Source: Bacteroidetes bacterium HGW-Bacteroidetes-4 (GTDB taxonomy: Bacteria > Bacteroidota > Bacteroidia > Bacteroidales > SZUA-534). From it: a DNA stretch of 64,000 nucleotides. The notes beneath the pieces are model-generated. The model made no database searches. It worked only from the letters and a program-made list of their open reading frames with translations, and was not told the origin of the DNA. Made by a program: the position numbers and the translations under genes. Location of the stretch: positions 62,001 through 126,000 of the forward strand of contig PHDD01000007.1 in assembly GCA_002840905.1 (NCBI GenBank). The letters are read 5' to 3'. This document shows, piece after piece, positions 34,981 to 47,666 of the stretch; positions within the stretch are counted from its first letter, which is position 1, and the number at the start of each line of letters is the position of its first letter.

Positions 34981-36606
34981 ATGAACGGAAATTTTGCATT
35001 TTTAGATTATCTGGTATTTGCCATTTACGCCGTGGTTATCCTTTCAGTGGGGCTCTTTGTGTCGCGTAATAAAAAAGGACAGGAGAAAACTGCCGAAGAT
35101 TATTTTCTGGCAGGAAAATCATTACCCTGGTGGGCTATAGGTGCCTCGCTTATTGCTGCTAATATTTCAGCTGAGCAATTCATTGGCATGTCGGGTTCCG
35201 GGTTTAAAGTGGGCTTGGCCATTGCCTCTTATGAATGGATGGCTGCCATTACACTTTTAATTGTGGCCAAGTATTTTCTTCCCATTTTTATTAAACAGGG
35301 GCTTTATACCATTCCCGAATTTGTTGAAAAACGTTTCAATACCTCGTTAAAGACCATATTGGCAGTATTTTGGATAGCGCTATTCGTTTTTGTAAATCTG
35401 ACATCAGTGCTCTATTTGGGAGGTAAAGCTTTGGATACGGTATTGGGAGGAGGAACCGGTGAAAGTGTTGTTCCCTTCATGATAGGTTTAGCGCTGTTTG
35501 CTGCTGCTTATTCGGTTTGGGGTGGACTTTCTGCAGTAGCTTGGACCGATGTTATTCAAGTAGTTTTATTGGTTGTAGGTGGTTTAATAACAACTATCAT
35601 TGCTTTAAATCATGTAACTCCCGATGGAGGGGCCTTCAATGGTTTAGCTCATGTTTTTGATGTGTCCAACGATAAATTCCATATGATTATTAAAAAAGAC
35701 AATCCGGAATTTATGAATTTACCGGGAATTGCCGTATTAATTGGTGGAATGTGGGTAGCTAACCTGTATTATTGGGGATTCAATCAATACATTATTCAAC
35801 GTGCATTGGCTGCTAAGTCCTTAAAAGAAGCTCAGCGTGGTATTGCATTTGCCGGATTCCTAAAATTAATTGTCCCCTTAATTGTTGTGGTACCCGGAAT
35901 CATTGCTTATGTAATGTACCAGGAAAACATTGCCGGTGCCGGAGCCGTTTTTTCCGATGCCATTGGAGCTAATAATGACCATGCTTATCCCTGGCTAATA
36001 GGTAACTTTGTTCCCGTAGGTTTAAAAGGTCTGGTTGTTGCAGCTCTATCTGCGGCTATTGTTTCTTCACTTGCATCTATGTTAAATTCAACATCTACCA
36101 TATTTACCATGGATATTTACAAACCTTACATCAATAAAACCGCAACAAACAAACAATTGGTTGGTGTAGGGCGACTAACTGTAATTGTAGCTTTATTAGT
36201 GGCTACTTCTTTGGCTAATACCATGGGTTCCATACCACAAATGTTTCAGTACATTCAAGAGTATACCGGTGTGGTTAGTCCGGGTATCCTGGCTGTATTT
36301 TTAATGGGTCTTTTCTGGAAAAAAACCAATGTAAAAGGAGCTATTGTTGGTGTTTTATCATCCATTCCGGTGGCTCTGGCATTAAAATTTTTACCTTTGG
36401 AAATGCCATTCCTCGATCAAATGCTTTATACACTGCTAATTACCATGGTTGTAATTGTTGGCGTATCGCTGAACAGCGGAAAGGGTGATGACGATCCTAA
36501 AAGCATTCCACTGTTGCCTGAGATTTTTGCTACTGGTAAAAATTTTAATATCAGCGCTTATATCATGCTGATTATTGTTGTTGTATTATACACTGTTTTT
36601 TGGTAG
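34981..36606 (+). CDS. Sodium/sugar symporter, SGLT (SSS) family
   Basis: A polytopic inner-membrane transporter of 541 residues with about 13-14 helices. The SSS signature region is visible near the start (AEDYFLAGKSLPWWAIGASLIAANISAEQFIGMSGSGF is split across 35-72). YYWGFNQYIIQRAL (~262), containing the conserved sugar-binding-type Gln/Asn residues, matches the SGLT branch. The position between galE and galM indicates galactose or glucose as substrate; this rests on context. A strong terminator follows. Confidence 0.92.
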   Translation: MNGNFAFLDYLVFAIYAVVILSVGLFVSRNKKGQEKTAEDYFLAGKSLPWWAIGASLIAANISAEQFIGMSGSGFKVGLAIASYEWMAAITLLIVAKYFLPIFIKQGLYTIPEFVEKRFNTSLKTILAVFWIALFVFVNLTSVLYLGGKALDTVLGGGTGESVVPFMIGLALFAAAYSVWGGLSAVAWTDVIQVVLLVVGGLITTIIALNHVTPDGGAFNGLAHVFDVSNDKFHMIIKKDNPEFMNLPGIAVLIGGMWVANLYYWGFNQYIIQRALAAKSLKEAQRGIAFAGFLKLIVPLIVVVPGIIAYVMYQENIAGAGAVFSDAIGANNDHAYPWLIGNFVPVGLKGLVVAALSAAIVSSLASMLNSTSTIFTMDIYKPYINKTATNKQLVGVGRLTVIVALLVATSLANTMGSIPQMFQYIQEYTGVVSPGILAVFLMGLFWKKTNVKGAIVGVLSSIPVALALKFLPLEMPFLDQMLYTLLITMVVIVGVSLNSGKGDDDPKSIPLLPEIFATGKNFNISAYIMLIIVVVLYTVFW

Positions 36607-36648
36607 TTAACAATACAATCCTTTAGGGATGATTCACTTTGTAAAGTT

Positions 36649-36687
36649 CGCTGATCAGCCTGATTAAAGTGCCGATCAGCGTTTTTT
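36649..36687 (+). terminator. Terminator after the symporter gene
   Basis: Perfect 8-base arms CGCTGATC/GATCAGCG (36649-36656 and 36674-36681) followed by a T run. It ends the galE-symporter transcript before galM. Confidence 0.85.
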
Positions 36688-36752
36688 AATTTAAACAACA
36701 ATATGGATTGATTTTGCCTTATTTTTTTTAAAACTCACTTAATTAACTATTT

Positions 36753-37766
36753 ATGAAATTAAAAAGCTACTTTTTACGCAATACAAACGGAGTCGAAATT
36801 GAATTTTTATCTTTGGGTGGAAAAATTAAGGCAATTAAAATCCCAGACGGTCCGGCTAAAATAGATATTGCATTAGGATATGACAAACCAGAAGACTATG
36901 TAGTGGGTGATGCTTATATGGGAGCTATTTGCGGACGCTTTGCCAATCGTATTGATATGGGACGTTTTAATCTGAAAGGGCAAACCATTCAATTGGCGCA
37001 AAACGATAGAACAAATCACTTGCATGGTGGAAATAATGGATTTAACTCCTTAATATGGAAAGTTGAAAAAACAGATTTAAAAAATTACGAAAGCGCTTAT
37101 AAACTAAGCCTTTTAAGTGCCGATGGAGACGAAAACTATCCGGGGAACCTTGAAGTGAATGTAGTTTATGCCTTGAGCCACAACAATGAATTTCTTATCG
37201 ATATTAAAGCTACAACTGATAAACCAACTCCTGTAAATCTGACCAGTCATCCTTATTTTAATTTAAATGGAGTAGGAAATGGAAAGATTTTTAATCATGA
37301 ACTCTGTATAAATTCCGACGCATTTACTCCATTAAACGAAGTTTCTGTTCCTACCGGAGAAATTCGTTCCATTAAAAACACACCGTTAGATTTTACAAGC
37401 CCGGTAAGACTAGGCGATGTAATAAATAGTGCTTATGAACAAATAAAACTTGTAAACGGACTCGATCACAACTGGGTGCTTAAAAAAGGTAAAGGTGCAA
37501 TGGTGAAGGCGGCTGTTCTTAGCGAACCCAAATCGGGAAGAAGCATTGAGGTGTTCACGACTCAGCCCGGATTACAGGTTTACACATCGATGCATTTTGA
37601 TGGAACTGAAACCGGAAAAGGAGGTATTCCATTTTCATCTTATGGTGCAGTTGCTATTGAAGCGCAAAACTTTCCCGACGCCCCAAATAAAAATCATTTT
37701 CCTAATTCAATTTTAAATCCAGGTGAAATCTATCATGAAGTAATAATTTATAAGTTTGGATTTTAA
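36753..37766 (+). CDS. galM: Aldose 1-epimerase (mutarotase)
   Basis: Converts beta- to alpha-galactose so that galactokinase can act. 337 residues, no signal peptide, hence cytoplasmic. Catalytic landmarks are present: NHLHGGNNGFN (~91, His), SHPYFNLNG (~166, His), and the C-terminal Glu in AIEAQNFPDAPN (~305). It belongs to the galactose module by position, but a terminator lies in front of it, so it needs its own promoter in the 146-base gap; none with a clean TAnnTTTG box was seen. Confidence 0.95.
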   Translation: MKLKSYFLRNTNGVEIEFLSLGGKIKAIKIPDGPAKIDIALGYDKPEDYVVGDAYMGAICGRFANRIDMGRFNLKGQTIQLAQNDRTNHLHGGNNGFNSLIWKVEKTDLKNYESAYKLSLLSADGDENYPGNLEVNVVYALSHNNEFLIDIKATTDKPTPVNLTSHPYFNLNGVGNGKIFNHELCINSDAFTPLNEVSVPTGEIRSIKNTPLDFTSPVRLGDVINSAYEQIKLVNGLDHNWVLKKGKGAMVKAAVLSEPKSGRSIEVFTTQPGLQVYTSMHFDGTETGKGGIPFSSYGAVAIEAQNFPDAPNKNHFPNSILNPGEIYHEVIIYKFGF

Positions 37767-37889
37767 TCAGCTAAATCAAATTTGTATCGGAATATATCGT
37801 TAAAGTGCTTATGAAATGAAATATTATTGTAGTATTTAGCTTCAAACATAAATTATAATGTAATTATTTGTTATTTATTTAATATTTCA

Positions 37890-37920
37890 TTTGTTTATTA
37901 AAAAATTACTTTCATCTTTG
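37890..37920 (+). promoter_or_regulatory. Promoter of the aromatic amino acid operon
   Basis: TTTG (37890-37893), 19-base spacer, CATCTTTG (37913-37920), which is TAnnTTTG with one mismatch. The predicted start near 37927 puts the leader-peptide ATG about 12 bases into the mRNA. The preceding 37767-37889 holds no gene. Confidence 0.6.
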
Positions 37921-37938
37921 TGTATCGAAAATTTGATT

Positions 37939-38019
37939 ATGAAAAAACCTAACGGACATACTTCTTTTTATTATTTCTTTTATTTCTGGGGAAGTAAAAC
38001 CGGGGTTTTATATGTGTAA
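37939..38019 (+). CDS. Aromatic-rich leader peptide of the attenuator
   Basis: A 26-codon ORF, ATG at 37939 and TAA at 38017, too short for ordinary gene finding. Residues 10-17 are FYYFFYFW, eight aromatic residues in a row covering Phe, Tyr and Trp, with another Tyr near the end. It lies just after a promoter and just before a terminator hairpin and the aromatic operon. The role is regulatory: ribosomes stall on these codons when charged aromatic tRNAs are scarce. It is directly analogous to the pheA and trp leader peptides of enterobacteria, but reads all three aromatic amino acids. Confidence 0.85.
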   Translation: MKKPNGHTSFYYFFYFWGSKTGVLYV

Positions 38020-38068
38020 ATTAAAGCAAACAGTATAATTGAAACCCCGCCCAAAAGCGGGGTTTTTT
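37999..38068 (+). promoter_or_regulatory. Transcription attenuator: antiterminator and terminator
   Basis: The terminator stem is AAACCCCGC/GCGGGGTTT (38042-38050 and 38057-38065) with a CCAAAA loop and a T run. A competing segment CGGGGTTT at 38001-38008 copies the 3' arm and can pair with 38042-38048 instead. That segment is inside the end of the leader ORF. A ribosome stalled on the aromatic codons (37966-37989) leaves it free to form the antiterminator, while a ribosome reaching the stop codon at 38017 covers it and lets the terminator form. Confidence 0.8.
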
Positions 38069-38082
38069 GTTAAATAAAAGTT

Positions 38083-38967
38083 ATGAAAAGTGAAAACTCT
38101 GAAGTAATGACAGTGCATAAAGTAGCCATTCAAGGGGGCCACGGTGCTTTCCACGAAATTGCTGCCCGCTCGTTTTTTCCAAATGCTCGCCTCGATTTAA
38201 TTCCCTGTGAAACCTTTGAACAAATTACCGATATGCTTGTCCGCCAAGAAATTGATTATGGAATAATGGCCATTGAAAATACGGTTGCAGGTAGTTTAAT
38301 TCCCAATTATGCCTTAATCCGCGAAACACCGGTAAAAATAATAGGTGAAAAATACCTGCGAATTAAACAAAACCTGCTGGCTTTACCAGGTCAAAAAATT
38401 GAAGACTTAACCGAAGTGCATTCACATTATATGGCTATAGCGCAAACCCGAAAATTTTTCAACCAATATCCTCATATAAAATTGGTTGAATCGGCTGATA
38501 CGGCACTAAGTGCAAAAAAAATTCAGGAAAAAAAACTGGTAGGTAAAGGAGCCATTGCCAGCGATCTTGCTGCAACATTGTATGGCCTCGAAATACTGGC
38601 TGCGGGTATAGAAACCAATAAAAGGAACTATACCCGTTTTTTGATCCTGAATCACAAAGATAACTTCGATTATGTGGTAGAAACCCGGAATAAAGCTTCG
38701 CTCTGTTTCAGTCTTCCTCACCATAAAGGAAGTTTATCGCAGGTGCTAAGTATTCTGGCTTTTTACGACCATAACCTGACCAAAATTCAAAGTATGCCCA
38801 TTGTGGGACAAGAGTTCAAGTATTTTTTCTATGTCGATTTAACATTCGACAGTTTTGAACGCTACCAGCAAAGTATTAGTGCCATAACACCTTTGGTAGT
38901 CGATTTACAGATTTTAGGTGAATATCAATATGGCATCGATTCATTAGAAACCATTCATAACCAATAA
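38083..38967 (+). CDS. pheA: Prephenate dehydratase
   Basis: Converts prephenate to phenylpyruvate. 294 residues with a PDT domain (~10-190: GGHGAFHEIAARSFFP, IENTVAGSL, NYTRFLIL with the catalytic Thr before Arg) and a C-terminal ACT domain (~205-285) for feedback by phenylalanine. There is no fused chorismate mutase; that activity is on the DAHP synthase gene of the same operon. It is the first structural gene after the attenuator. An internal ATG at 38107, right before the conserved region, is an alternative start. The aminotransferase starts two bases after its stop. Confidence 0.94.
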   Translation: MKSENSEVMTVHKVAIQGGHGAFHEIAARSFFPNARLDLIPCETFEQITDMLVRQEIDYGIMAIENTVAGSLIPNYALIRETPVKIIGEKYLRIKQNLLALPGQKIEDLTEVHSHYMAIAQTRKFFNQYPHIKLVESADTALSAKKIQEKKLVGKGAIASDLAATLYGLEILAAGIETNKRNYTRFLILNHKDNFDYVVETRNKASLCFSLPHHKGSLSQVLSILAFYDHNLTKIQSMPIVGQEFKYFFYVDLTFDSFERYQQSISAITPLVVDLQILGEYQYGIDSLETIHNQ

Positions 38968-38969
38968 TT

Positions 38970-40142
38970 ATGATACAAGCTGCTCAAAGAACCCAGCAGG
39001 TAAGCGAATACTATTTCTCGCAAAAACTGCAGCAAATTGATGATATGAACCGTCGCGGTGAAACAGTGATAAATTTGGGGATAGGGAACCCCGATATGCT
39101 TCCACCAGCCGATGCACTGGAATTATTGTCCCAAAAAGTGCTCGAACCCGGGGTTCACGGTTACCAAAGCTACAAAGGGATTCCCGAACTTCGTCAGGCT
39201 TTTGCCAATTGGTACGAGAAATATTATAAAGTTATGCTCGATCCCAACCAGGAAGTGCTTCCACTGATGGGCTCAAAAGAAGGAATAATGCATATATCAC
39301 TGGCGTTTTTAAATCCCGGCGATGCAGTGCTAATACCTAATCCCGGTTATCCTACATATAGTTCAGTGTCGCAAATGGTTGGCGCTAAAATAATAGAATA
39401 TCAATTGAATGAAGCCAACAATTGGTATCCCAATTTTGAAGCATTAGAGGAAATTGATTTATCGCAGGTAAAACTTATGTGGGTAAATTATCCACACATG
39501 CCAACCGGACAGCCTGCCAGTAAAGAATTGTTTCAAAAACTGGTTGATTTTGGACAAAAGCATCAAATTCTTATATGCAATGATAATCCCTATAGTTTTA
39601 TTCTTAATGAACATCCTCTGAGCATTTTATCGATTCCGGGTGCTAAAAATATTGCATTGGAATTAAATTCGCTTAGCAAATCGCATAATATGGCGGGTTT
39701 TCGAATAGGAATGGTTGCCGGTGATCCGGAATACATAAACCATATCCTTAAAATGAAAAGCAACATGGACTCGGGTATGTATAAACCTATGCAAATGGCA
39801 GCAGCAAGGGCTCTTGAGAGTTCTCAGGAATGGTTCAATACCATCAACGAAACTTATGCCCAGCGGCGTAAGTTAGTATATCAGATTTTCGATTTACTCG
39901 AAACTACCTACGATAAAAATCAGACCGGGATGTTTTTATGGGCTAAAATTCCTAATAAGTTTAACGATGCATTTGAATTCTCCGATGAAATTTTAAAAGA
40001 AGCAAAGGTTTTTATTACACCGGGCTCCATATTTGGGTCCAATGGAAAACGATTTGCCCGTATATCACTTTGCAGCAACAATGAATTGTTAAATCAGGCT
40101 TTAATGCGTTTAAAGGCGGTTACCATAACATTAAATAAATAA
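38970..40142 (+). CDS. Fold-type I aminotransferase, probably aromatic
   Basis: A class I/II PLP aminotransferase of 390 residues. The Schiff-base lysine is Lys237 in SLSKSHNMAGFRIG. Other landmarks are GIGNPDMLPP (~32), NPGYPTYSS (~126), CNDNPYSFI (~200) and the carboxylate-binding Arg in FARISLCSNNE (~366). Position between pheA and tyrA points to transamination of phenylpyruvate and 4-hydroxyphenylpyruvate, the last step to Phe and Tyr. A broader substrate range, for example aspartate or diaminopimelate-type acceptors, cannot be excluded. The gaps on either side are 2 and 10 bases. Confidence 0.85.
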   Translation: MIQAAQRTQQVSEYYFSQKLQQIDDMNRRGETVINLGIGNPDMLPPADALELLSQKVLEPGVHGYQSYKGIPELRQAFANWYEKYYKVMLDPNQEVLPLMGSKEGIMHISLAFLNPGDAVLIPNPGYPTYSSVSQMVGAKIIEYQLNEANNWYPNFEALEEIDLSQVKLMWVNYPHMPTGQPASKELFQKLVDFGQKHQILICNDNPYSFILNEHPLSILSIPGAKNIALELNSLSKSHNMAGFRIGMVAGDPEYINHILKMKSNMDSGMYKPMQMAAARALESSQEWFNTINETYAQRRKLVYQIFDLLETTYDKNQTGMFLWAKIPNKFNDAFEFSDEILKEAKVFITPGSIFGSNGKRFARISLCSNNELLNQALMRLKAVTITLNK

Positions 40143-40152
40143 TAGAAATTAC

Positions 40153-40995
40153 ATGATAATAACAATTATAGGATTAGGATTAATGGGAGGCTCCGCGGCT
40201 ATTGATTTACGCAAGCGGGGAATAGCTTCTCATATAATTGGAGTCGATACCGATAAGATTAATGCCAATGCGGCTCTAAACATTGGTTTTGTTGATGAAT
40301 TACTCGACATGGAATCGGCTGTTAAAAATGCAGAATTTGTTATTGTGGCAATACCGGTCGATGCTGCATTGCTGGTGCTTCCCAAAGTACTCGATTGGGT
40401 CGACAAGCAAGTGGTTACCGATATGTGTTCAACAAAAGGAAAATTATTGGAATGGGTAAAATACCATCCCAAAAGAAGAAATTATGTAGCAGCTCATCCC
40501 ATGGCCGGGACTGAGTTCTCAGGTCCCTGGGCAGCCATTTCGGGCTTGTTCGATGGTAAAGCGGTTATTCTTTGTGATACCGAAGACAGTGACATACGTG
40601 CTGTTGCTACAACCAAACGAATTTTCGAAACATTAAATATGCGTGTCATTTATATGAATGGTGCCAATCACGATGTGCATGCGGCTTATATTTCGCACAT
40701 TTCGCATATCAGTTCATTTGCCCTGGCACTTACGGTACTCGAAAAAGAGAAAAATGAAAAACATATTTTCGATTTGGCCAGTGGGGGATTTGATTCGACT
40801 GTTCGTTTAGCCAAGAGCTCAGCTGAAATGTGGACCCCAATTTTTGGTCAGAACAAGGAGAATGTACTTACCGTTTTAGAAACCTACATTAGCAAACTAA
40901 AGGATTTTAAAAAGACCATCGAAAACGACGATGCCGAAAAACTGGCAAAATTAATCAAAGAATCGAATCAAATCAGACGCATACTTTTTAAATAG
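40153..40995 (+). CDS. tyrA: Prephenate dehydrogenase
   Basis: Oxidatively decarboxylates prephenate to 4-hydroxyphenylpyruvate for tyrosine. 280 residues: the Rossmann motif GLGLMGGSAAIDLRKRG is at the N-terminus, and the prephenate-binding helical domain carries HPMAGTEFSGPWAA (~114) and SHISHISSFALAL (~178). There is no fused chorismate mutase or ACT domain, so it is probably not directly inhibited by tyrosine through an ACT site. It is the third gene of the attenuated operon. Confidence 0.94.
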   Translation: MIITIIGLGLMGGSAAIDLRKRGIASHIIGVDTDKINANAALNIGFVDELLDMESAVKNAEFVIVAIPVDAALLVLPKVLDWVDKQVVTDMCSTKGKLLEWVKYHPKRRNYVAAHPMAGTEFSGPWAAISGLFDGKAVILCDTEDSDIRAVATTKRIFETLNMRVIYMNGANHDVHAAYISHISHISSFALALTVLEKEKNEKHIFDLASGGFDSTVRLAKSSAEMWTPIFGQNKENVLTVLETYISKLKDFKKTIENDDAEKLAKLIKESNQIRRILFK

Positions 40996-41060: not shown

Positions 41061-42146
41061 ATGAACGCCATTTTGAAACATGCATTTAAAGGTTGGGAAC
41101 TCGAAAATCCCGACCGTCCACTAATAATTGCTGGACCATGTAGTGCTGAATCCGAAGAGCAGATCCTTGATACGGCACGTCAGTTAAAAGCTATGAATAT
41201 ACAGGTTTTCCGTGCAGGTATCTGGAAACCACGAACCCGACCCAACTCCTTTGAAGGTGTCGGAAGCATCGGCCTAGAATGGTTAAAACTGGTGCAAAAA
41301 GAAGTCGGCATGAAGGTTTCAACTGAAGTGGCCAATGTAAAACACGTTTACGAAGCGCTTCGTTATGGCGTCGATATTATCTGGATAGGAGCCCGTACAT
41401 CGGCCAACCCCTTTGCCATGCAGGAAATTGCCGATGCTTTAAAAGGTGTTGATATTCCGGTTTTTGTTAAAAATCCGGTAAATCCCGATGTAGATTTGTG
41501 GATGGGAGCCATTGAGCGAATTCAGGGTGCTGGCATAACACGTGTGGGAGCCATTCACCGGGGTTTTTCTACTTTTGACAAAACACGTTATCGCAATGCC
41601 CCACAATGGCAATTACCTATTGAGTTACGTCGAAAAATGCCGGACATTCCCATGATTTGCGATCCAAGCCATATTGGAGGGCGACGCGATATCCTGCAAG
41701 AAATTTCACAAAAAGCACTCGACCTGAACTACGATGGATTAATCATTGAAACCCATTGCAATCCCGATAAAGCCTGGAGCGATGCTAAGCAGCAAATAAC
41801 GCCAAACGATTTAAGCAAATTGCTGGGAAAATTGGTGCTGCGTAACGTTAATACCGATAATCCGGTATTTCTACATACTTTAGAGGATTTACGCCAACAA
41901 ATTGATAAATTCGACGATGAATTGCTGACCATTATTGAAGAACGTATGAAAGTGGCCGAAAAAATTGGAGAATACAAGAAGATAAACAACATCACCATTT
42001 TACAACCCGATCGTTGGCAAGAGATTCTAAATAAGGTGCTTGAAAAAGGCAAGAATCGCGATTTAAGCGATGATTTCCTGATTGGTTTGTTTAAAGCAAT
42101 ACATCAGGAATCCATCAATAAACAAACCCGAATAATGAACGATTAG
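41061..42146 (+). CDS. Bifunctional DAHP synthase/chorismate mutase
   Basis: Makes DAHP from phosphoenolpyruvate and erythrose-4-phosphate, the entry step, and also rearranges chorismate to prephenate. The N-terminal type Ibeta DAHP synthase (1-265) has LIIAGPCSAESEEQI, FRAGIWKPRTRPNSFEG, and the metal ligands in CDPSHIGGRRD and IETHCNPDKA. The C-terminal AroQ chorismate mutase (~275-355) has LRQQIDKFDDELLTIIEERM and the catalytic Lys/Arg pattern. Fusing both lets chorismate-mutase ligands control DAHP synthase, as known for this architecture. It lies 65 bases after tyrA. Confidence 0.95.
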   Translation: MNAILKHAFKGWELENPDRPLIIAGPCSAESEEQILDTARQLKAMNIQVFRAGIWKPRTRPNSFEGVGSIGLEWLKLVQKEVGMKVSTEVANVKHVYEALRYGVDIIWIGARTSANPFAMQEIADALKGVDIPVFVKNPVNPDVDLWMGAIERIQGAGITRVGAIHRGFSTFDKTRYRNAPQWQLPIELRRKMPDIPMICDPSHIGGRRDILQEISQKALDLNYDGLIIETHCNPDKAWSDAKQQITPNDLSKLLGKLVLRNVNTDNPVFLHTLEDLRQQIDKFDDELLTIIEERMKVAEKIGEYKKINNITILQPDRWQEILNKVLEKGKNRDLSDDFLIGLFKAIHQESINKQTRIMND

Positions 42147-42211: not shown

Positions 42212-43234
42212 ATGAAAAAACTTATCATTAACGGAGAACTCTCCAATTCAGAACTGCTGATTGGCGAAAGCTTTCAGAATTTTACGCAGTATTTACCCAA
42301 AAAACAACCAATTATTGTTCTTACTGACGATAAGATTCATGCGCTTTATGGTTCCTATTTTAATGACTATCAAACCATTGTTATTGGACAAACCGAGAAA
42401 GTAAAAACCCTGTCAACTGTTGAAGCTGTTATTAACCAGTTAACCGAATTTGAAGCCGACCGCAGTACCTTTTTATTGGTAGTTGGAGGTGGTATTGTTT
42501 GTGATATTGGCGGGTTTGTTGCATCCATTTACATGCGGGGAATTGAGTTTGGTTTTATTTCAACCACACTATTATCGCAGGTTGATGCCAGTGTTGGAGG
42601 AAAAAATGGGGTGAATTTCAGCGGTTATAAAAACATAATCGGAACTTTCAATCAGCCCAAATTTGTTATATGCGATCCACAAATGCTAAAAACCCTCAAG
42701 CACGATGAACTAATCAATGGTTTTGCCGAGATTGTAAAACATACGCTGATTGCTGATAAAAATATGTTTCATTGGTTAAGCCAGCATTTCGAAAAAGCAT
42801 TGAGTCTGGATTTCGATACCATTGAAAAACTCGTATTTAACTCTGTTTCTATTAAGGCTTCAATTGTTAATAATGACGAGAAAGAACAAGGTGAGCGTCG
42901 AAAGTTGAATCTGGGACATACCTATGGACATGCCATTGAAAAAGTATTTCAATTGTCGCACGGTAATGCAGTAAGTATTGGTTTGGTGGTAGCTGCCAGA
43001 TTGTCGATGGAAAAAGGATTTTTAAGCTCCGGTGATTTTCAGCAAATTATACAATTATTAAAGAATCTGAAACTGCCTGTTGATATTCCTGATAATCAGG
43101 AAAAGGTATTGCAAGCATTGACCATGGATAAAAAGCGGGAAGGAAAGCTGGTTCATTTTATACTTATTGATGAAATTGGCCAGGCCCGAATAGAACCCAT
43201 TGAATTGGAAGTATTGCAAAAAATGCTAATTTAA
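42212..43234 (+). CDS. aroB: 3-dehydroquinate synthase
   Basis: Second shikimate-pathway step, DAHP to 3-dehydroquinate, with NAD and a divalent metal. 340 residues, slightly short for the family. NAD-binding VVGGGIVCDIGGFVAS is near 93, followed by STTLLSQVDASVGGKNGVN (~125). Metal ligands lie in GFAEIVKHTLI (Glu, ~171) and in LNLGHTYGHAIE (His, ~234 and ~238). It is the fifth gene of the aromatic operon. Confidence 0.95.
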   Translation: MKKLIINGELSNSELLIGESFQNFTQYLPKKQPIIVLTDDKIHALYGSYFNDYQTIVIGQTEKVKTLSTVEAVINQLTEFEADRSTFLLVVGGGIVCDIGGFVASIYMRGIEFGFISTTLLSQVDASVGGKNGVNFSGYKNIIGTFNQPKFVICDPQMLKTLKHDELINGFAEIVKHTLIADKNMFHWLSQHFEKALSLDFDTIEKLVFNSVSIKASIVNNDEKEQGERRKLNLGHTYGHAIEKVFQLSHGNAVSIGLVVAARLSMEKGFLSSGDFQQIIQLLKNLKLPVDIPDNQEKVLQALTMDKKREGKLVHFILIDEIGQARIEPIELEVLQKMLI

Positions 43235-43266: not shown

Positions 43267-43896
43267 ATGCTTTGTCGTTCTGTAGCATTACAAGGGCTCG
43301 AAAATATAAAAAAGGCCATCGATGGAGCCACTTTGGCTGAAATTCGCATCGAAAAATCGAACTTAACCATCCCCGAAGTTAAAGAATTGTTTAGCTACCA
43401 TAAAAATCTGATAGCTACCTGCAGGCCGGTTGGAATTAGCAAACAGGAACGTAAAGAGCTGTTAATGTCCGCTATTGAGGGCGGAGCACAATGGATTGAT
43501 CTTGAAATTGAATCTGATTTTGAATATTGCAGCAGCCTTTTGGCTTTTGCAAAAGAAAAGGGATGTAAAGTTATTGTTTCGTATCATAACTATAATTACA
43601 CACCCGATTCTTTCCTGCTATGCAAAGTGGTAAACGAAGCACGTAAAAAACAAGCCGACCTGGTAAAAATAGCCACTCAGGTAAACGATAAAGCAGATAA
43701 TGCTCGCTTACTTTGTTTGTATAATCAGGGAATTCCGATAATTGCCATAGGAATGGGGCCACTTGGAAAAATAACCCGGATTGCCGCACTTGAGTTGGGA
43801 GCTCCTTTTACCTTTGTAAGTATGGACGATAATTCAAAAACCGCCCCGGGGCAGTTGAGTGAAGAACAAATGAGAAATATTTTAAATAGCTTATAA
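43267..43896 (+). CDS. aroD: 3-dehydroquinate dehydratase, type I
   Basis: Dehydrates 3-dehydroquinate to 3-dehydroshikimate through a Schiff base. At 209 residues it is a compact type I enzyme (E. coli 252). Conserved residues are visible: LIATCRPVG (~54), the catalytic His in VIVSYHNYN (~106), the Schiff-base Lys in DLVKIATQ (~137), and GMGPLGKITR (~165). Type II (AroQ) enzymes are more common in many bacteria, so the type I form is worth noting. The spacing to neighbours is about 30 bases on each side. Confidence 0.92.
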   Translation: MLCRSVALQGLENIKKAIDGATLAEIRIEKSNLTIPEVKELFSYHKNLIATCRPVGISKQERKELLMSAIEGGAQWIDLEIESDFEYCSSLLAFAKEKGCKVIVSYHNYNYTPDSFLLCKVVNEARKKQADLVKIATQVNDKADNARLLCLYNQGIPIIAIGMGPLGKITRIAALELGAPFTFVSMDDNSKTAPGQLSEEQMRNILNSL

Positions 43897-43925: not shown

Positions 43926-45179
43926 ATGGTTAAAGTAATTCATCCTTCTGCAATTCATGGAGAGGTAAAGGCTCCTGCTTCAAAAAGCTATATGCAACGG
44001 GCAATAGCCCTTTCAATATTAGCCGATGATGAAACCCTTATTGAAAATCCGTCGCGATGCGATGATGCCTTAGCCGGATTGAATATTGCAGCTAGTTTTG
44101 GATGTCGTATTTACGACAACGGGAGCTTTATTTCCATCATTCCCAATCCGGAGGCTTTACCGCAAAAATTATTTTGTGGAGAATCGGGTTTGGCTATCAG
44201 GTTGTTTGCTCCTGTTGCTGCACTGTTCTCACATCCGGTGGAATTAATTGCTGAAGGTTCACTTTTAAAACGTCCGGCCGGTTTTATGACGCATACACTT
44301 CAACAATTTGGCGTTAAAGTTGAATCGAATCAGGGTTTTCCACCAATCCAAATTCAAGGCCCAATTTCTGCGGGTAAAGCTGTTTTAGACGGTAGTCTGA
44401 GTTCTCAATTCCTTTCTGGTTTGTTGATTGCGCTACCCAAAGCCAAAGGAAACAGTGTGTTAAAAGTTGAAAATTTAATGAGCATCCCTTATGTTTCAAT
44501 GACATTGCAAGCTATTGAAGCTTTTGGAGGCAGAGTAGAAAATAAAGATTATCAGGAGTTTATTATTTCCGGAAATCAATCGTACAAAGGAGGTACTTAT
44601 AAAATTGAAGGCGATTGGAGTGGAGCGGCCGGATTATTGGTTGCTGGAGCCATAGCCGGTAAAATTACAGTAAAAGAACTTCAATCGGCTTCGTTACAGG
44701 CCGATGTTGCGGTATTAAAAGCTTTGCAGCAGGCAGGAGCCCATATTGATATGGCAAATGAACAAATTACTGTTTCAAAACCTGCTGAATTACATGCTTT
44801 TGAATTTGACGCTTTGCATTGCCCCGATCTTTTTCCTGTTTTAACCGCATTGGCTTCAAACTGCAAAGGAATCAGCAAAATATACGGAGTTCATCGCTTA
44901 GTTCATAAAGAAAGTAATCGAGGCGAAGTATTAAAGCAAGAGTTTAATAAACTTGGAATAAATATTGATATACAAGATGATATAATGTTAATCACCGGTG
45001 GAACTGTTAAATCAGGAAAAGTTAATGCTCACAACGATCATCGCATGGCTATGGCTTTATCTCTGGCTGCTTTAAATGCTAAGGGACCCATTACCATTGA
45101 TGACGCATTGTGTGTAAACAAGACGTATCCCGATTTTTATAACGATTTGGATACCCTGGGTGTCAAGGTAATGTCATAA
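43926..45179 (+). CDS. aroA: EPSP synthase (3-phosphoshikimate 1-carboxyvinyltransferase)
   Basis: Joins shikimate-3-phosphate and phosphoenolpyruvate. 417 residues, two inside-out alpha/beta domains. Binding motifs are KAPASKSYMQRAIALS (~15, Lys/Ser/Arg), CGESGLAIRLFAP (~86), GSLSSQFLSGLLIALP (~156), HKESNRGEVL (~328) and NDHRMAMALSLA (~370). The usual GNAGTA-type loop appears here as GESGLA, a variant of the inhibitor-binding loop; glyphosate sensitivity cannot be inferred from this alone. It is the seventh gene of the operon. Confidence 0.93.
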   Translation: MVKVIHPSAIHGEVKAPASKSYMQRAIALSILADDETLIENPSRCDDALAGLNIAASFGCRIYDNGSFISIIPNPEALPQKLFCGESGLAIRLFAPVAALFSHPVELIAEGSLLKRPAGFMTHTLQQFGVKVESNQGFPPIQIQGPISAGKAVLDGSLSSQFLSGLLIALPKAKGNSVLKVENLMSIPYVSMTLQAIEAFGGRVENKDYQEFIISGNQSYKGGTYKIEGDWSGAAGLLVAGAIAGKITVKELQSASLQADVAVLKALQQAGAHIDMANEQITVSKPAELHAFEFDALHCPDLFPVLTALASNCKGISKIYGVHRLVHKESNRGEVLKQEFNKLGINIDIQDDIMLITGGTVKSGKVNAHNDHRMAMALSLAALNAKGPITIDDALCVNKTYPDFYNDLDTLGVKVMS

Positions 45180-45227: not shown

Positions 45228-46220
45228 ATGAACTCATTCGGAAGAATATTTAAAATACAATTGTTTGGTGAATCGCATGGAATGGGAGCCGGAATAATTA
45301 TTGACGGCTGTCCGGCGGGTGTTCCCTTAAGTGAATCCGATTTTGAAGTTGATTTGGCAAGACGAAGGCCCGGGGCAATTGGAACTACGCCGCGTAAAGA
45401 AGCCGATTTACCTGAATTAATGAGTGGTGTATTTAATGGCAAAACCACCGGCGCTCCTTTAACTATTTTTTTTCGAAATATGAATACCCGCTCGGGTGAT
45501 TATGAAAACCTGGTAGCTTCGCCCAGACCAGGTCATGCTGATTTTACCGGTAAAGTAAAATTTGGCGGCAATAACGACTATCGCGGCGGAGGCCATTTTA
45601 GTGCCCGATTAACGGTTGGCCTTGTGGCAGCGGGCGTATTAGCCAAAAAATTACTTAGGGCACAAACTATTAATGCAACTTTAGTTGAAGCCGGAGGCTC
45701 AAAAAATATTGATGAAGCCATTAAAAATGCCTTAGCTAATCAGGATTCTATTGGAGGAATTGTGGAATGTCGTGTACAAGGCTTACCGGCCGGACTGGGA
45801 GAACCTTTTTGGGATTCAGTAGAGTCTTTAATCAGCCATGCGGTATTTGCAATACCTGCAACCAAGGGAATTGAATTTGGCAGCGGTTTTCGGGCTGCCC
45901 TAATGCCAGGTTCAGAACACAACGACGCCATAATTGATGCAGATGGAACAACCAAAACCAATCATGCCGGGGGAATAAACGGAGGTATTACTAACGGAAA
46001 TGAATTAATATTCAGGGTAGCCATTAAACCCACTTCGAGTATCGGCAAATCGCAACAAACCATGAATTTTGAAACAAACCAGGTTGAAGAATTAAAAATC
46101 CAGGGGCGTCATGATGCCTGTGTGGCCTTACGTGTACCACCCATTCTTGAAGCTATGACAGCACTGGTTTTAGCCGATTTGATGCTGCTGGAACAAAAAA
46201 TACCAAGAATATATAAATAA
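45228..46220 (+). CDS. aroC: Chorismate synthase
   Basis: Produces chorismate with reduced FMN. 330 residues, at the short end of the family (about 350-360). Signature regions are LFGESHGMGAGIIIDGCPAG at the N-terminus, ARRRPGAIGTTPRKE (~44), RPGHADFTGKVKFG (~102) and DYRGGGHFSARLTVG (~118). The C-terminal GRHDACVALRVPPILEAM carries the conserved His-Asp. It is the last gene of the aromatic operon and converges on pyk with 24 bases between stops. Together with aroB, aroD and aroA it leaves only aroE and aroK missing from the chorismate route in this window. Confidence 0.95.
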   Translation: MNSFGRIFKIQLFGESHGMGAGIIIDGCPAGVPLSESDFEVDLARRRPGAIGTTPRKEADLPELMSGVFNGKTTGAPLTIFFRNMNTRSGDYENLVASPRPGHADFTGKVKFGGNNDYRGGGHFSARLTVGLVAAGVLAKKLLRAQTINATLVEAGGSKNIDEAIKNALANQDSIGGIVECRVQGLPAGLGEPFWDSVESLISHAVFAIPATKGIEFGSGFRAALMPGSEHNDAIIDADGTTKTNHAGGINGGITNGNELIFRVAIKPTSSIGKSQQTMNFETNQVEELKIQGRHDACVALRVPPILEAMTALVLADLMLLEQKIPRIYK

Positions 46221-46244: not shown

Positions 46245-47666
46245 TTAAAAATAAGAAAGCTTGACCATGTTGGTTTGTCCACGCTTATTTAAGGGTATAC
46301 TTCCCACATGAACGATCAATTCGTTTTCATCAATTAAATTATTTTCTTTTAAATACTTAAGTGTAAATTCAACGGCATCGTTTGTAAATAAAAACTCGTT
46401 GCTTAAGTAAGGTCGGGTTCCCCAAAGTAAAGACATTTGTCGTAGTAAACCTATTTCAGGAGTAAAAGCAAAAATATTGGCATCAGGCCGATGGCTGGCT
46501 ATACGGAAAGCTGTATAACCCGAATAAGTAAGAACTATTATCGATTTGGCTCGGGTTTGTTGCGCCATAGTGCAGGCACTACTGCAAATAGAATCGGGAA
46601 TAAAAGAATGGTTCATTACCGAAGGTGAATGCTCTCGATAATATTTATAGCCTTTTTGTTCAGTATAAGTTATAATCTGACGCATGCTCTGAATTACTTC
46701 AACCGGATATTGTCCCACACTGGTTTCCCCACTTAGCATTAAAGCACTGGCTCCGTCAATTACAGCATTTGCTACATCGTTTGCTTCAGCACGTGTGGGA
46801 CTAAAGTTTTGTATCATGCTTTCCATCATTTGAGTAGCAATGATTACCGGTTTGGCAAATTTAATGCACTTTTCGACCAGCATTTTTTGCATCAGTGGAA
46901 CTTCGTGAAAAGGCATTTCAACACCCAAATCGCCGCGGGCTACCATAACACCATCGGTAACGTCAATAATATTATCAATTTCTGTAAGTGCTTCGGGTTT
47001 TTCAATTTTTGCAATAACTTTGGTGTGTTTTTTCTTTTTTCGGATTATATCCTTAAGATCAGCAATATCGGTAACCGAACGCACAAACGACAGCGCAATC
47101 CAATCTACTCCCTGATCCAATGCAAAATTGGCATCTTCAATATCTTTTTTTGTAAGGCTGGGCAAGGAGATGTGAGTATTGGGAAGGTTGACACCTTTTT
47201 TCGAAGATAAAATACCTCCATGAATTACCCGGGCTCTAACCAGATTCACTTTATTGGTAAAAACAGCTTCCAATTTTAGCTTTCCATCGTCAATTAAAAT
47301 TACATCGCCTGGTTTTACATCCATAGGAAATAGTTTGTAACTCATGTACACTTTTTTTGCTGTTCCCAGGCATTCATCGTTAACAAAATCAATTTCTTCA
47401 CCTTCAACAAGTTGCACTCCATTGTTTTCAATATCACCAACCCGTAGTTTGGGCCCCTGCAAATCGACGAGCAGGGCAACATTGGTATTTTTTTCCTGAT
47501 TCAAATCGAGTATATTTTCAATTACCTGCTTGTGATCAGCATGAGTTCCATGCGAAAAATTCAAACGAAAAACATTTACGCCGGCATCGATTAACTGATT
47601 TAACATGTGGCGAGAAGAAGAGGCTGGCCCAACCGTAGCAACAATCTTGGTTCTGTTGAAATGCAT
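46245..47666 (-). CDS. pyk: Pyruvate kinase
   Basis: Last glycolytic step, phosphoenolpyruvate plus ADP to pyruvate plus ATP. 473 residues, standard length. The N-terminus has RTKIVATVGPASSS and VFRLNFSHGTHADHK with the active-site Arg/Asn/Ser. KVIAKIEKPEALTEID (~217) holds the catalytic Lys, followed by VARGDLGVEMP (~246) with metal ligands and ATQMMESMIQNFSPTRAE (~283). The C-terminal effector domain is complete. It is monocistronic and divergent from the hydantoinase gene. Confidence 0.97.
   Translation of the reverse strand: MHFNRTKIVATVGPASSSRHMLNQLIDAGVNVFRLNFSHGTHADHKQVIENILDLNQEKNTNVALLVDLQGPKLRVGDIENNGVQLVEGEEIDFVNDECLGTAKKVYMSYKLFPMDVKPGDVILIDDGKLKLEAVFTNKVNLVRARVIHGGILSSKKGVNLPNTHISLPSLTKKDIEDANFALDQGVDWIALSFVRSVTDIADLKDIIRKKKKHTKVIAKIEKPEALTEIDNIIDVTDGVMVARGDLGVEMPFHEVPLMQKMLVEKCIKFAKPVIIATQMMESMIQNFSPTRAEANDVANAVIDGASALMLSGETSVGQYPVEVIQSMRQIITYTEQKGYKYYREHSPSVMNHSFIPDSICSSACTMAQQTRAKSIIVLTYSGYTAFRIASHRPDANIFAFTPEIGLLRQMSLLWGTRPYLSNEFLFTNDAVEFTLKYLKENNLIDENELIVHVGSIPLNKRGQTNMVKLSYF

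Follow-up and report, generated by a model that had tools for sequence, protein, structure and literature searches.

How transcription of a large aromatic amino acid operon is controlled in a member of the Bacteroidota is the question raised by this locus. In the window, by which we mean the whole 64,000-nucleotide stretch of DNA that was analysed, eight genes running from pheA to aroC follow one another on the + strand at distances of 2-65 nt, and the next long ORF past aroC (46245-47666) lies on the opposite strand. Profile matches give the gene run as it stood in the preliminary description of this DNA, namely an eight-gene operon for Phe, Tyr and chorismate; the names of tyrA, aroB, aroA and aroC come from scores above the NCBI curated cut-offs, and the other four are best matches below cut-off:

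38083-38967, + strand: pheA, prephenate dehydratase, first gene (NCBIfam best match PRK11898, E=1.1e-54, below its curated cut-off; PF00800 above cut-off)
38970-40142, + strand: PLP aminotransferase, assigned to this general class (best 25 of 71 matching families all below curated cut-offs)
40153-40995, + strand: tyrA, prephenate dehydrogenase (NF006307, E=1.1e-108, above cut-off)
41061-42146, + strand: DAHP synthase-chorismate mutase fusion (PRK12595, E=1.4e-57; chorismate mutase models at residues 274-355; below curated cut-offs)
42212-43234, + strand: aroB, 3-dehydroquinate synthase (TIGR01357, above cut-off)
43267-43896, + strand: aroD, type I 3-dehydroquinate dehydratase (TIGR01093, E=5.3e-35, below cut-off)
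43926-45179, + strand: aroA, 3-phosphoshikimate 1-carboxyvinyltransferase (TIGR01356, above cut-off)
45228-46220, + strand: aroC, chorismate synthase, last gene (TIGR00033, above cut-off)

The leader region is the gap between galM, the upstream neighbour on the same strand (end at 37766), and the start of pheA at 38083. It holds the following elements:

37890-37920, + strand: promoter-like site of the Bacteroidota type, a pattern match (TTTG at 37890-37893, 19 nt, then CATCTTTG at 37913-37920)
37939-38019, + strand: predicted leader peptide ORF of 26 codons with ATG start and TAA stop (from translation; the same kind of ORF occurs at 90 loci)
37966-37989, + strand: putative control codons FYYFFYFW, residues 10-17 (from translation; F/Y-rich run kept across families)
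37944-37955, + strand: segment 1, predicted to pair with segment 2 (protector or pause hairpin) if the ribosome is absent (minimum-energy fold)
38001-38010, + strand: segment 2, CGGGGTTTTA, the putative antiterminator strand and partner of segment 3 (folding, shuffle and swap tests)
38042-38050, + strand: segment 3, terminator 5' arm AAACCCCGC (sequence and folding)
38057-38068, + strand: segment 4, terminator 3' arm GCGGGGTTT (38057-38065) with the T run (38063-38068) (sequence and folding)

The ORF at 37939-38019 translates as MKKPNGHTSFYYFFYFWGSKTGVLYV followed by the stop, which confirms the 26-codon frame, with FYYFFYFW at residues 10-17, that had been pointed out before. A sceptical reading would assign the hairpin to galM as its terminator and see in the ORF a low-complexity stretch arisen by chance, both being conceivable in an AT-rich region with galM ending at 37766 on the same strand, and we find it scarcely credible. 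The leader ORF stands alone among the 2643 ORFs of at most 60 aa on both window strands in having more than 6 aromatics in 8 codons. There are 6 seven-codon TTY/TAY runs in the whole genome (4.32 Mb), the leader's included, and inspection of the other five by eye revealed none within an ATG-started short ORF preceding a recognised aromatic-biosynthesis gene. Together with the rarity of such ORFs in shuffled sequence, these counts led us to reject a chance ORF, and the change of segment 2 along with the terminator arm, described below, argues against it as well. As regards galM, just 3 of the 120 in-class loci, 76 of which span more than 3 kb, have it upstream, namely those of the window and two congeners, while leader and terminator stay with pheA; the hairpin therefore goes with pheA, and its assignment to galM was likewise rejected.

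The promoter earlier placed at 37890-37920 matches the Bacteroidota form TTTG-N19-TAnnTTTG with one substitution, its second box beginning with C where the form has T. The TAnnTTTG element, quoted as the -7 box in PMC9723704, is found within 100 nt before the leader start at 57 of 88 leader loci against 8.6 expected from shuffles, and the two-box form TTTG-N18-21-YAnnTTTG at 27 of 88 against 0.5; the counts cover 88 of the 90 leader loci, the other two having too short an upstream sequence. A simple scanner, covering the E. coli type only, found no promoter of that type on the + strand. Transcription would probably start near 37927.

Folding places the terminator hairpin at 38042-38068, as first described, with arms 38042-38050 and 38057-38065 followed by the T run. 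The hairpin itself amounts to -14.8 kcal/mol and the fold of 38029-38072 to -17.0 kcal/mol; a simple terminator scanner had missed it, and folding was used instead. Segment 2 pairs with the 5' arm of the terminator better than 200 of 200 shuffles do. The preliminary description had recognised this pairing in a segment duplicating the 3' arm, and only its extent needs correction, from 38001-38008 to 38001-38010. The whole leader, left free, folds at -34 kcal/mol compared to a shuffle mean of -25.6 (z -2.39; 3 of 200 shuffles equal it), with segment 1 on segment 2 and a separate terminator. To represent a stalled ribosome, the RNA 5' of it was removed, its footprint being assumed to span 12 nt counted from where the A-site codon begins. 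With the RNA ended at 38052, stalls at Y15, F16 or W17 give the pairing of segments 2 and 3 at -14.6 kcal/mol, and stalls at F10, Y11 and F13 retain that pairing with additional pairs besides. With the ribosome at the stop codon, the terminator remains at -17.0 kcal/mol. The two structures are thus mutually exclusive in the way originally proposed, the 2:3 fold being free to form under a stalled ribosome and the terminator with the ribosome at the stop. Both folds also form in the comparison of energies that the preliminary description had recommended, which however puts the antiterminator below the finished terminator in stability (-14.6 compared to -17.0 kcal/mol). Once the transcript is complete to 38072, the terminator is favoured at all 6 of the 6 stall positions computed, and the switch must therefore be kinetic, decided while the RNA is being made.

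Relatives were consulted next to the locus itself, the search for a conserved leader ORF having been suggested with the preliminary description. Prephenate dehydratase matches yielded 149 loci (a single one for each genome), and leader ORFs were scored in the 500 nt upstream of them, a leader being called at 6 or more F/Y/W in 8 codons (thresholds set after the first loci were inspected). From these upstream regions, the aromatic leader turns out to be conserved in most related families examined. Up to and including the order, it precedes pheA at 68 of 76 loci (own genome 1/1, genus 2/2, family 10/10, order 55/63) and at 22 of 42 loci of the class; outside the class, but within the phylum, it was seen at 0 of 29 loci, a limited sample because these were only the best-scoring 29 with loci, 12 of them from one family. 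Shuffles (100 each) would yield 0.01, 0.00, 0.09, 0.84, 0.50 and 0.02 leaders for own genome, genus, family, order, class and other classes, respectively, less than 2 in sum. ATG starts the ORF in 88 of the 90 leader loci (ATG was favoured by the search wherever more than one start was available), and by eye the peptides of different families have little in common beyond their aromatic content. The 6-of-8 run is missing at 8/63 order loci and 20/42 class loci. Ten of these 20 class loci reach 5 of 8, several of the ten having a split run such as RFYFSNNFYFFF, and at a threshold of at least 5 aromatics in 8 codons 32 of the 42 class loci carry a leader.

The samples behind these counts were delimited as follows. 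The family level comprises 10 loci of 14 genomes with a match, and the six near-identical family-level loci of one genus among them (L024-L029) enter the per-family tests as one family. The order level comprises 63 of 65 matching genomes, L015 and L124 having been dropped at contig ends. One search returned 36 matching genomes, from which G006, G010, G013 and G016 as well as second matches in G015 and G025 were left out, and one class-level search included 26 of 44 matching same-class genomes. Seven class-level loci (L104, L107, L153-L155, L157 and L163) show split runs of the kind RFYF-SN-NFYFFF, which fall just below the threshold and are similar within family f45.

A hairpin with T tract lies between aromatic run and gene at 89 of the 90 leader loci, compared to 15.4 expected (5 shuffles each), L072 being the sole exception in which no terminator was found. 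Compared to shuffles, the duplex between segment 2 and the 5' arm is the better one (p<=0.05) at 69 of 89 loci and, taking the median member, in 38 of 53 families; it is not significant at that level in 20 of 89 loci, the congener L003 among them (p=0.19). At the level of sequence comparison, the strongest evidence for the switch is that segment 2 changes in step with the arm it should pair with. Since CCCG is common to many arms, segments were swapped between families, using the first-listed member of each and confining segment 2 to 60 nt downstream of the run. Averaged across the 53 families, a segment with its own arm gave -13.18 kcal/mol as opposed to -8.90 kcal/mol for swapped pairs, and 0 of 20,000 permutations were as good. 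Among all 53 segments, a family's own segment 2 ranked first for its arm in 15 families and within the top tenth in 34. The distance from the run to the start of segment 2 is 5-25 nt in all but one of the families (52 of 53), and in 46 of 53 it is 9-18 nt, both being plain counts within the 60 nt searched. For the pairing of segment 1 with segment 2, the shuffle test is weak (p=0.08 in the window; p<=0.05 in 18/89 loci and 7/53 families), and the swap test over 53 families was positive, with 0/20,000 permutations as good. As a separate observation, the terminators of L120, L133 and L139 (class or order level) lie about 200 nt after the run, compared to the usual distance of about 50; the scan kept the strongest hairpin only, and a nearer or tandem one is possible there.

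Based on this collective evidence, the locus is understood, with a high degree of confidence, as a classical ribosome-mediated transcription attenuator. Of the recognised hallmarks, a short ORF of cognate codons (its translation predicted), an intrinsic terminator and a mutually exclusive antiterminator are present. From the parts, their conservation and the matched change of segment 2 and terminator arm, we infer transcription start, translation, stalling and read-through, with Phe and Tyr both as real signals, in the following manner. RNA polymerase would start near 37927 and a ribosome would begin the leader peptide. When charged Phe- or Tyr-tRNA is scarce, the ribosome would stall in 37966-37989 and cover segment 1; segment 2, just clear of the stalled ribosome, would pair with the emerging segment 3, segment 4 would then be without partner, and the polymerase would continue from pheA through to aroC. 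When Phe and Tyr are ample, the ribosome would reach the stop at 38017-38019 and cover segment 2, with the effect that segments 3 and 4 would pair and transcription would end at about 38068. Without any ribosome, segments 1 and 2 would pair and termination would result likewise. The attenuator reading of the preliminary description is thus upheld by the conservation of leader, terminator and antiterminator, whereas its two further ideas, Trp as a general input and the rarity of such a leader, are not, as discussed below.

TnaC, a tryptophan-sensing arrest peptide, exemplifies a different principle. An arrest peptide sensing a small molecule, or else a switch acting on the translation of pheA rather than on its transcription, would involve a stall in the aromatic run that looks the same in sequence. 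We judge either of them improbable, given that peptides alike in little but aromatic content are hard to reconcile with an arrest peptide, and that the hairpin and T tract before the gene in 89/90 loci favour transcription as the level of control.

Regarding the amino acids read by the proposed attenuator, the best 8-codon window contains F in 54 of 54 families, Y in 52 and W in 9, and the 396 aromatic residues in these windows divide into 220 F, 167 Y and 9 W. Leaders with a W at any position number 28 among the 90 loci and come from 17 of 54 families. The operon's own proteins have residue fractions of 0.0256 for Y, 0.0427 for F and 0.008 for W, W making up 0.105 of their aromatic residues. 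Joint sensing of Phe, Tyr and Trp, as the preliminary description had it, finds no support as a general property, W being rarer in the windows (9/396) than in the operon's proteins, and it was rejected as a conserved rule. In general, the signals are likely to be Phe and Tyr. In near relatives, Trp would be no more than an additional input, and it may add to the response in the window's genus. W closes the run of the window and those of the near relatives L003, L004 and L005, whereas L002 has C there; W is absent from L006.

Within the same attenuator, Phe could be the sole real signal, acting through the charging of tRNA-Phe, with the Tyr and Trp codons passive or minor. We consider this a doubtful but serious possibility. 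It is in line with F being the commonest residue and present in every family's window, with the aroR leader of Corynebacterium glutamicum (Phe-Tyr-Phe), in which Phe limitation gives a response and Tyr limitation none (PMC11802643), and with modelling in which mixed control regions were less sensitive to each single amino acid (PMC1183508). The prevalence of Tyr in the windows speaks against it, as does its 0.42 share of their aromatics, which is larger than its share in the operon's proteins, and so does the placement of tyrA within the operon. With both Phe and Tyr as signals, the mixed run raises the question of how a single switch integrates two amino acids.

There exist clear analogies to described systems. 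The enterobacterial pheA attenuator (pheL; RF01859, Phe_leader) shares with the window a Phe-codon leader controlling pheA by attenuation (PMC11802643), and the RF01859 model matches 37952-38071 at 34.4 bits (E=0.004), below its gathering score of 55, a score reached neither in the window nor in the 20 relatives scanned. Distinct from pheL, the window leader has Tyr codons throughout, a combined Phe/Tyr/shikimate operon behind it and a Bacteroidota-type promoter in front. The aroR leader resembles it more in being a mixed Phe/Tyr leader before an operon with DAHP synthase, but it comes from Actinobacteria, reads Phe-Tyr-Phe as opposed to an eight-codon run, and has Phe as the sole signal (Neshat et al. 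2014, as described in PMC11802643). Among the papers listed by searches of an open-access library, none dealt with this aromatic leader or its antiterminator in Bacteroidales, and little was found on amino-acid regulation in Bacteroidota. The Bacteroid-trp motif, RF01692, is linked to trp genes. It appears as a Bacteroidetes cis-regulatory candidate of Weinberg et al. 2010 in Table 1 of PMC2864571. It is not among the E<=5 matches in 36000-40000 and is absent from the E<=1 matches in the trpE, hisG, ilvD and thr regions of the own genome. Earlier predictions may be contained in Lopatovskaya et al. 2010, which is cited in PMC4833913.

Closer in phylogeny, a flavobacterial transcriptome, that of Flavobacterium psychrophilum, is already reported to contain strong indications that amino-acid operons are attenuated by leader peptides, with 5' elements before pheA, hisG and others that are kept in other Flavobacteriaceae genera and have no Rfam hits (PMC9723704); phylum and the target gene pheA are the same as for the window leader. 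In B. thetaiotaomicron, short ORFs reminiscent of leader peptides are reported (PMC7366714). Compared to the part of PMC9723704 that concerns these elements, the present analysis covers many families of the window's order and adds the matched change of segment 2 and terminator. The proposed switch is of a known kind, and the support that it receives from comparison is unusually clear.

The preliminary description had called a leader of this type unusual for Bacteroidota. In the window's order, such leaders are in fact the rule, and hisG, trpE and ilvD often have their own. F/Y runs precede pheA at 68 of 75 loci (family, genus and own genome included), His runs precede hisG at 24 of 30, Trp runs trpE at 19 of 28, and Ile/Leu/Val runs ilvD at 11 of 30 (strict threshold); mismatched combinations of run and gene number 0-2 each. 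In this comparison, three loci with <150 bases upstream were dropped, and the partial trpE matches L230 and L231, as well as matches without loci, were excluded; the hisG and ilvD loci beyond the own genome are L174-L202 and L232-L260. Given that these genes often carry leaders for their own amino acid, the pheA leader is therefore one part of a wider set. In four operon types, the leader codons fit the amino acid of the gene behind them, which bears, in addition, on whether the leader might be a T-box, a riboswitch or a protein-binding leader, all of which likewise control amino-acid genes through terminators. This seems very unlikely to us; moreover, no Rfam covariance model reached its gathering score in 36000-40000 or in the 20 homologous loci chosen, and a known Rfam element (T-box, riboswitch) was rejected on that basis.

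Lastly, the leaders suggest a broader role for this form of control. We think it rather probable that leader-peptide attenuation is standard for amino-acid synthesis across the class Bacteroidia (aromatic, his, trp, ilv and probably thr), in a phylum largely without Shine-Dalgarno sequences, and that it has perhaps arisen independently of the proteobacterial systems. If true, the first ribosome would, in this phylum, trail the polymerase at so short a distance that it can control termination. Attenuation requires immediate translation that tracks the polymerase, and the leaders therefore make transcription-translation coupling in Bacteroidota directly testable. They would also provide a well-delimited regulatory RNA for the large aromatic operon of a major gut and environmental group.

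The own genome offers further examples. MYLNLHHHHHHFIHAQKAQN precedes hisG (L164) and MKYKSLIVLVVILVVITKTRGL precedes ilvD (L165). On contig C10 (L169), a candidate thr leader with the run TTTITTTIITT and ending in HTATTTITTTIITTP lies before an ORF starting at about 77908, which has a homoserine dehydrogenase domain and, by eye, an aspartate kinase as its front part; a strong hairpin overlaps the Thr codons, without a clear T tract (by eye). On contig C30 (L166), two Trp-rich leaders, MINICKNIWWWHFNLLRQ and MQLTKQKQYWWRWNMIYLSG, stand in tandem before trpE, their ORFs at -349..-292 and -204..-141 relative to the PF04715 match. Each of the two appears by eye to have a separate hairpin with T tract behind it, and together they possibly form a double attenuator.
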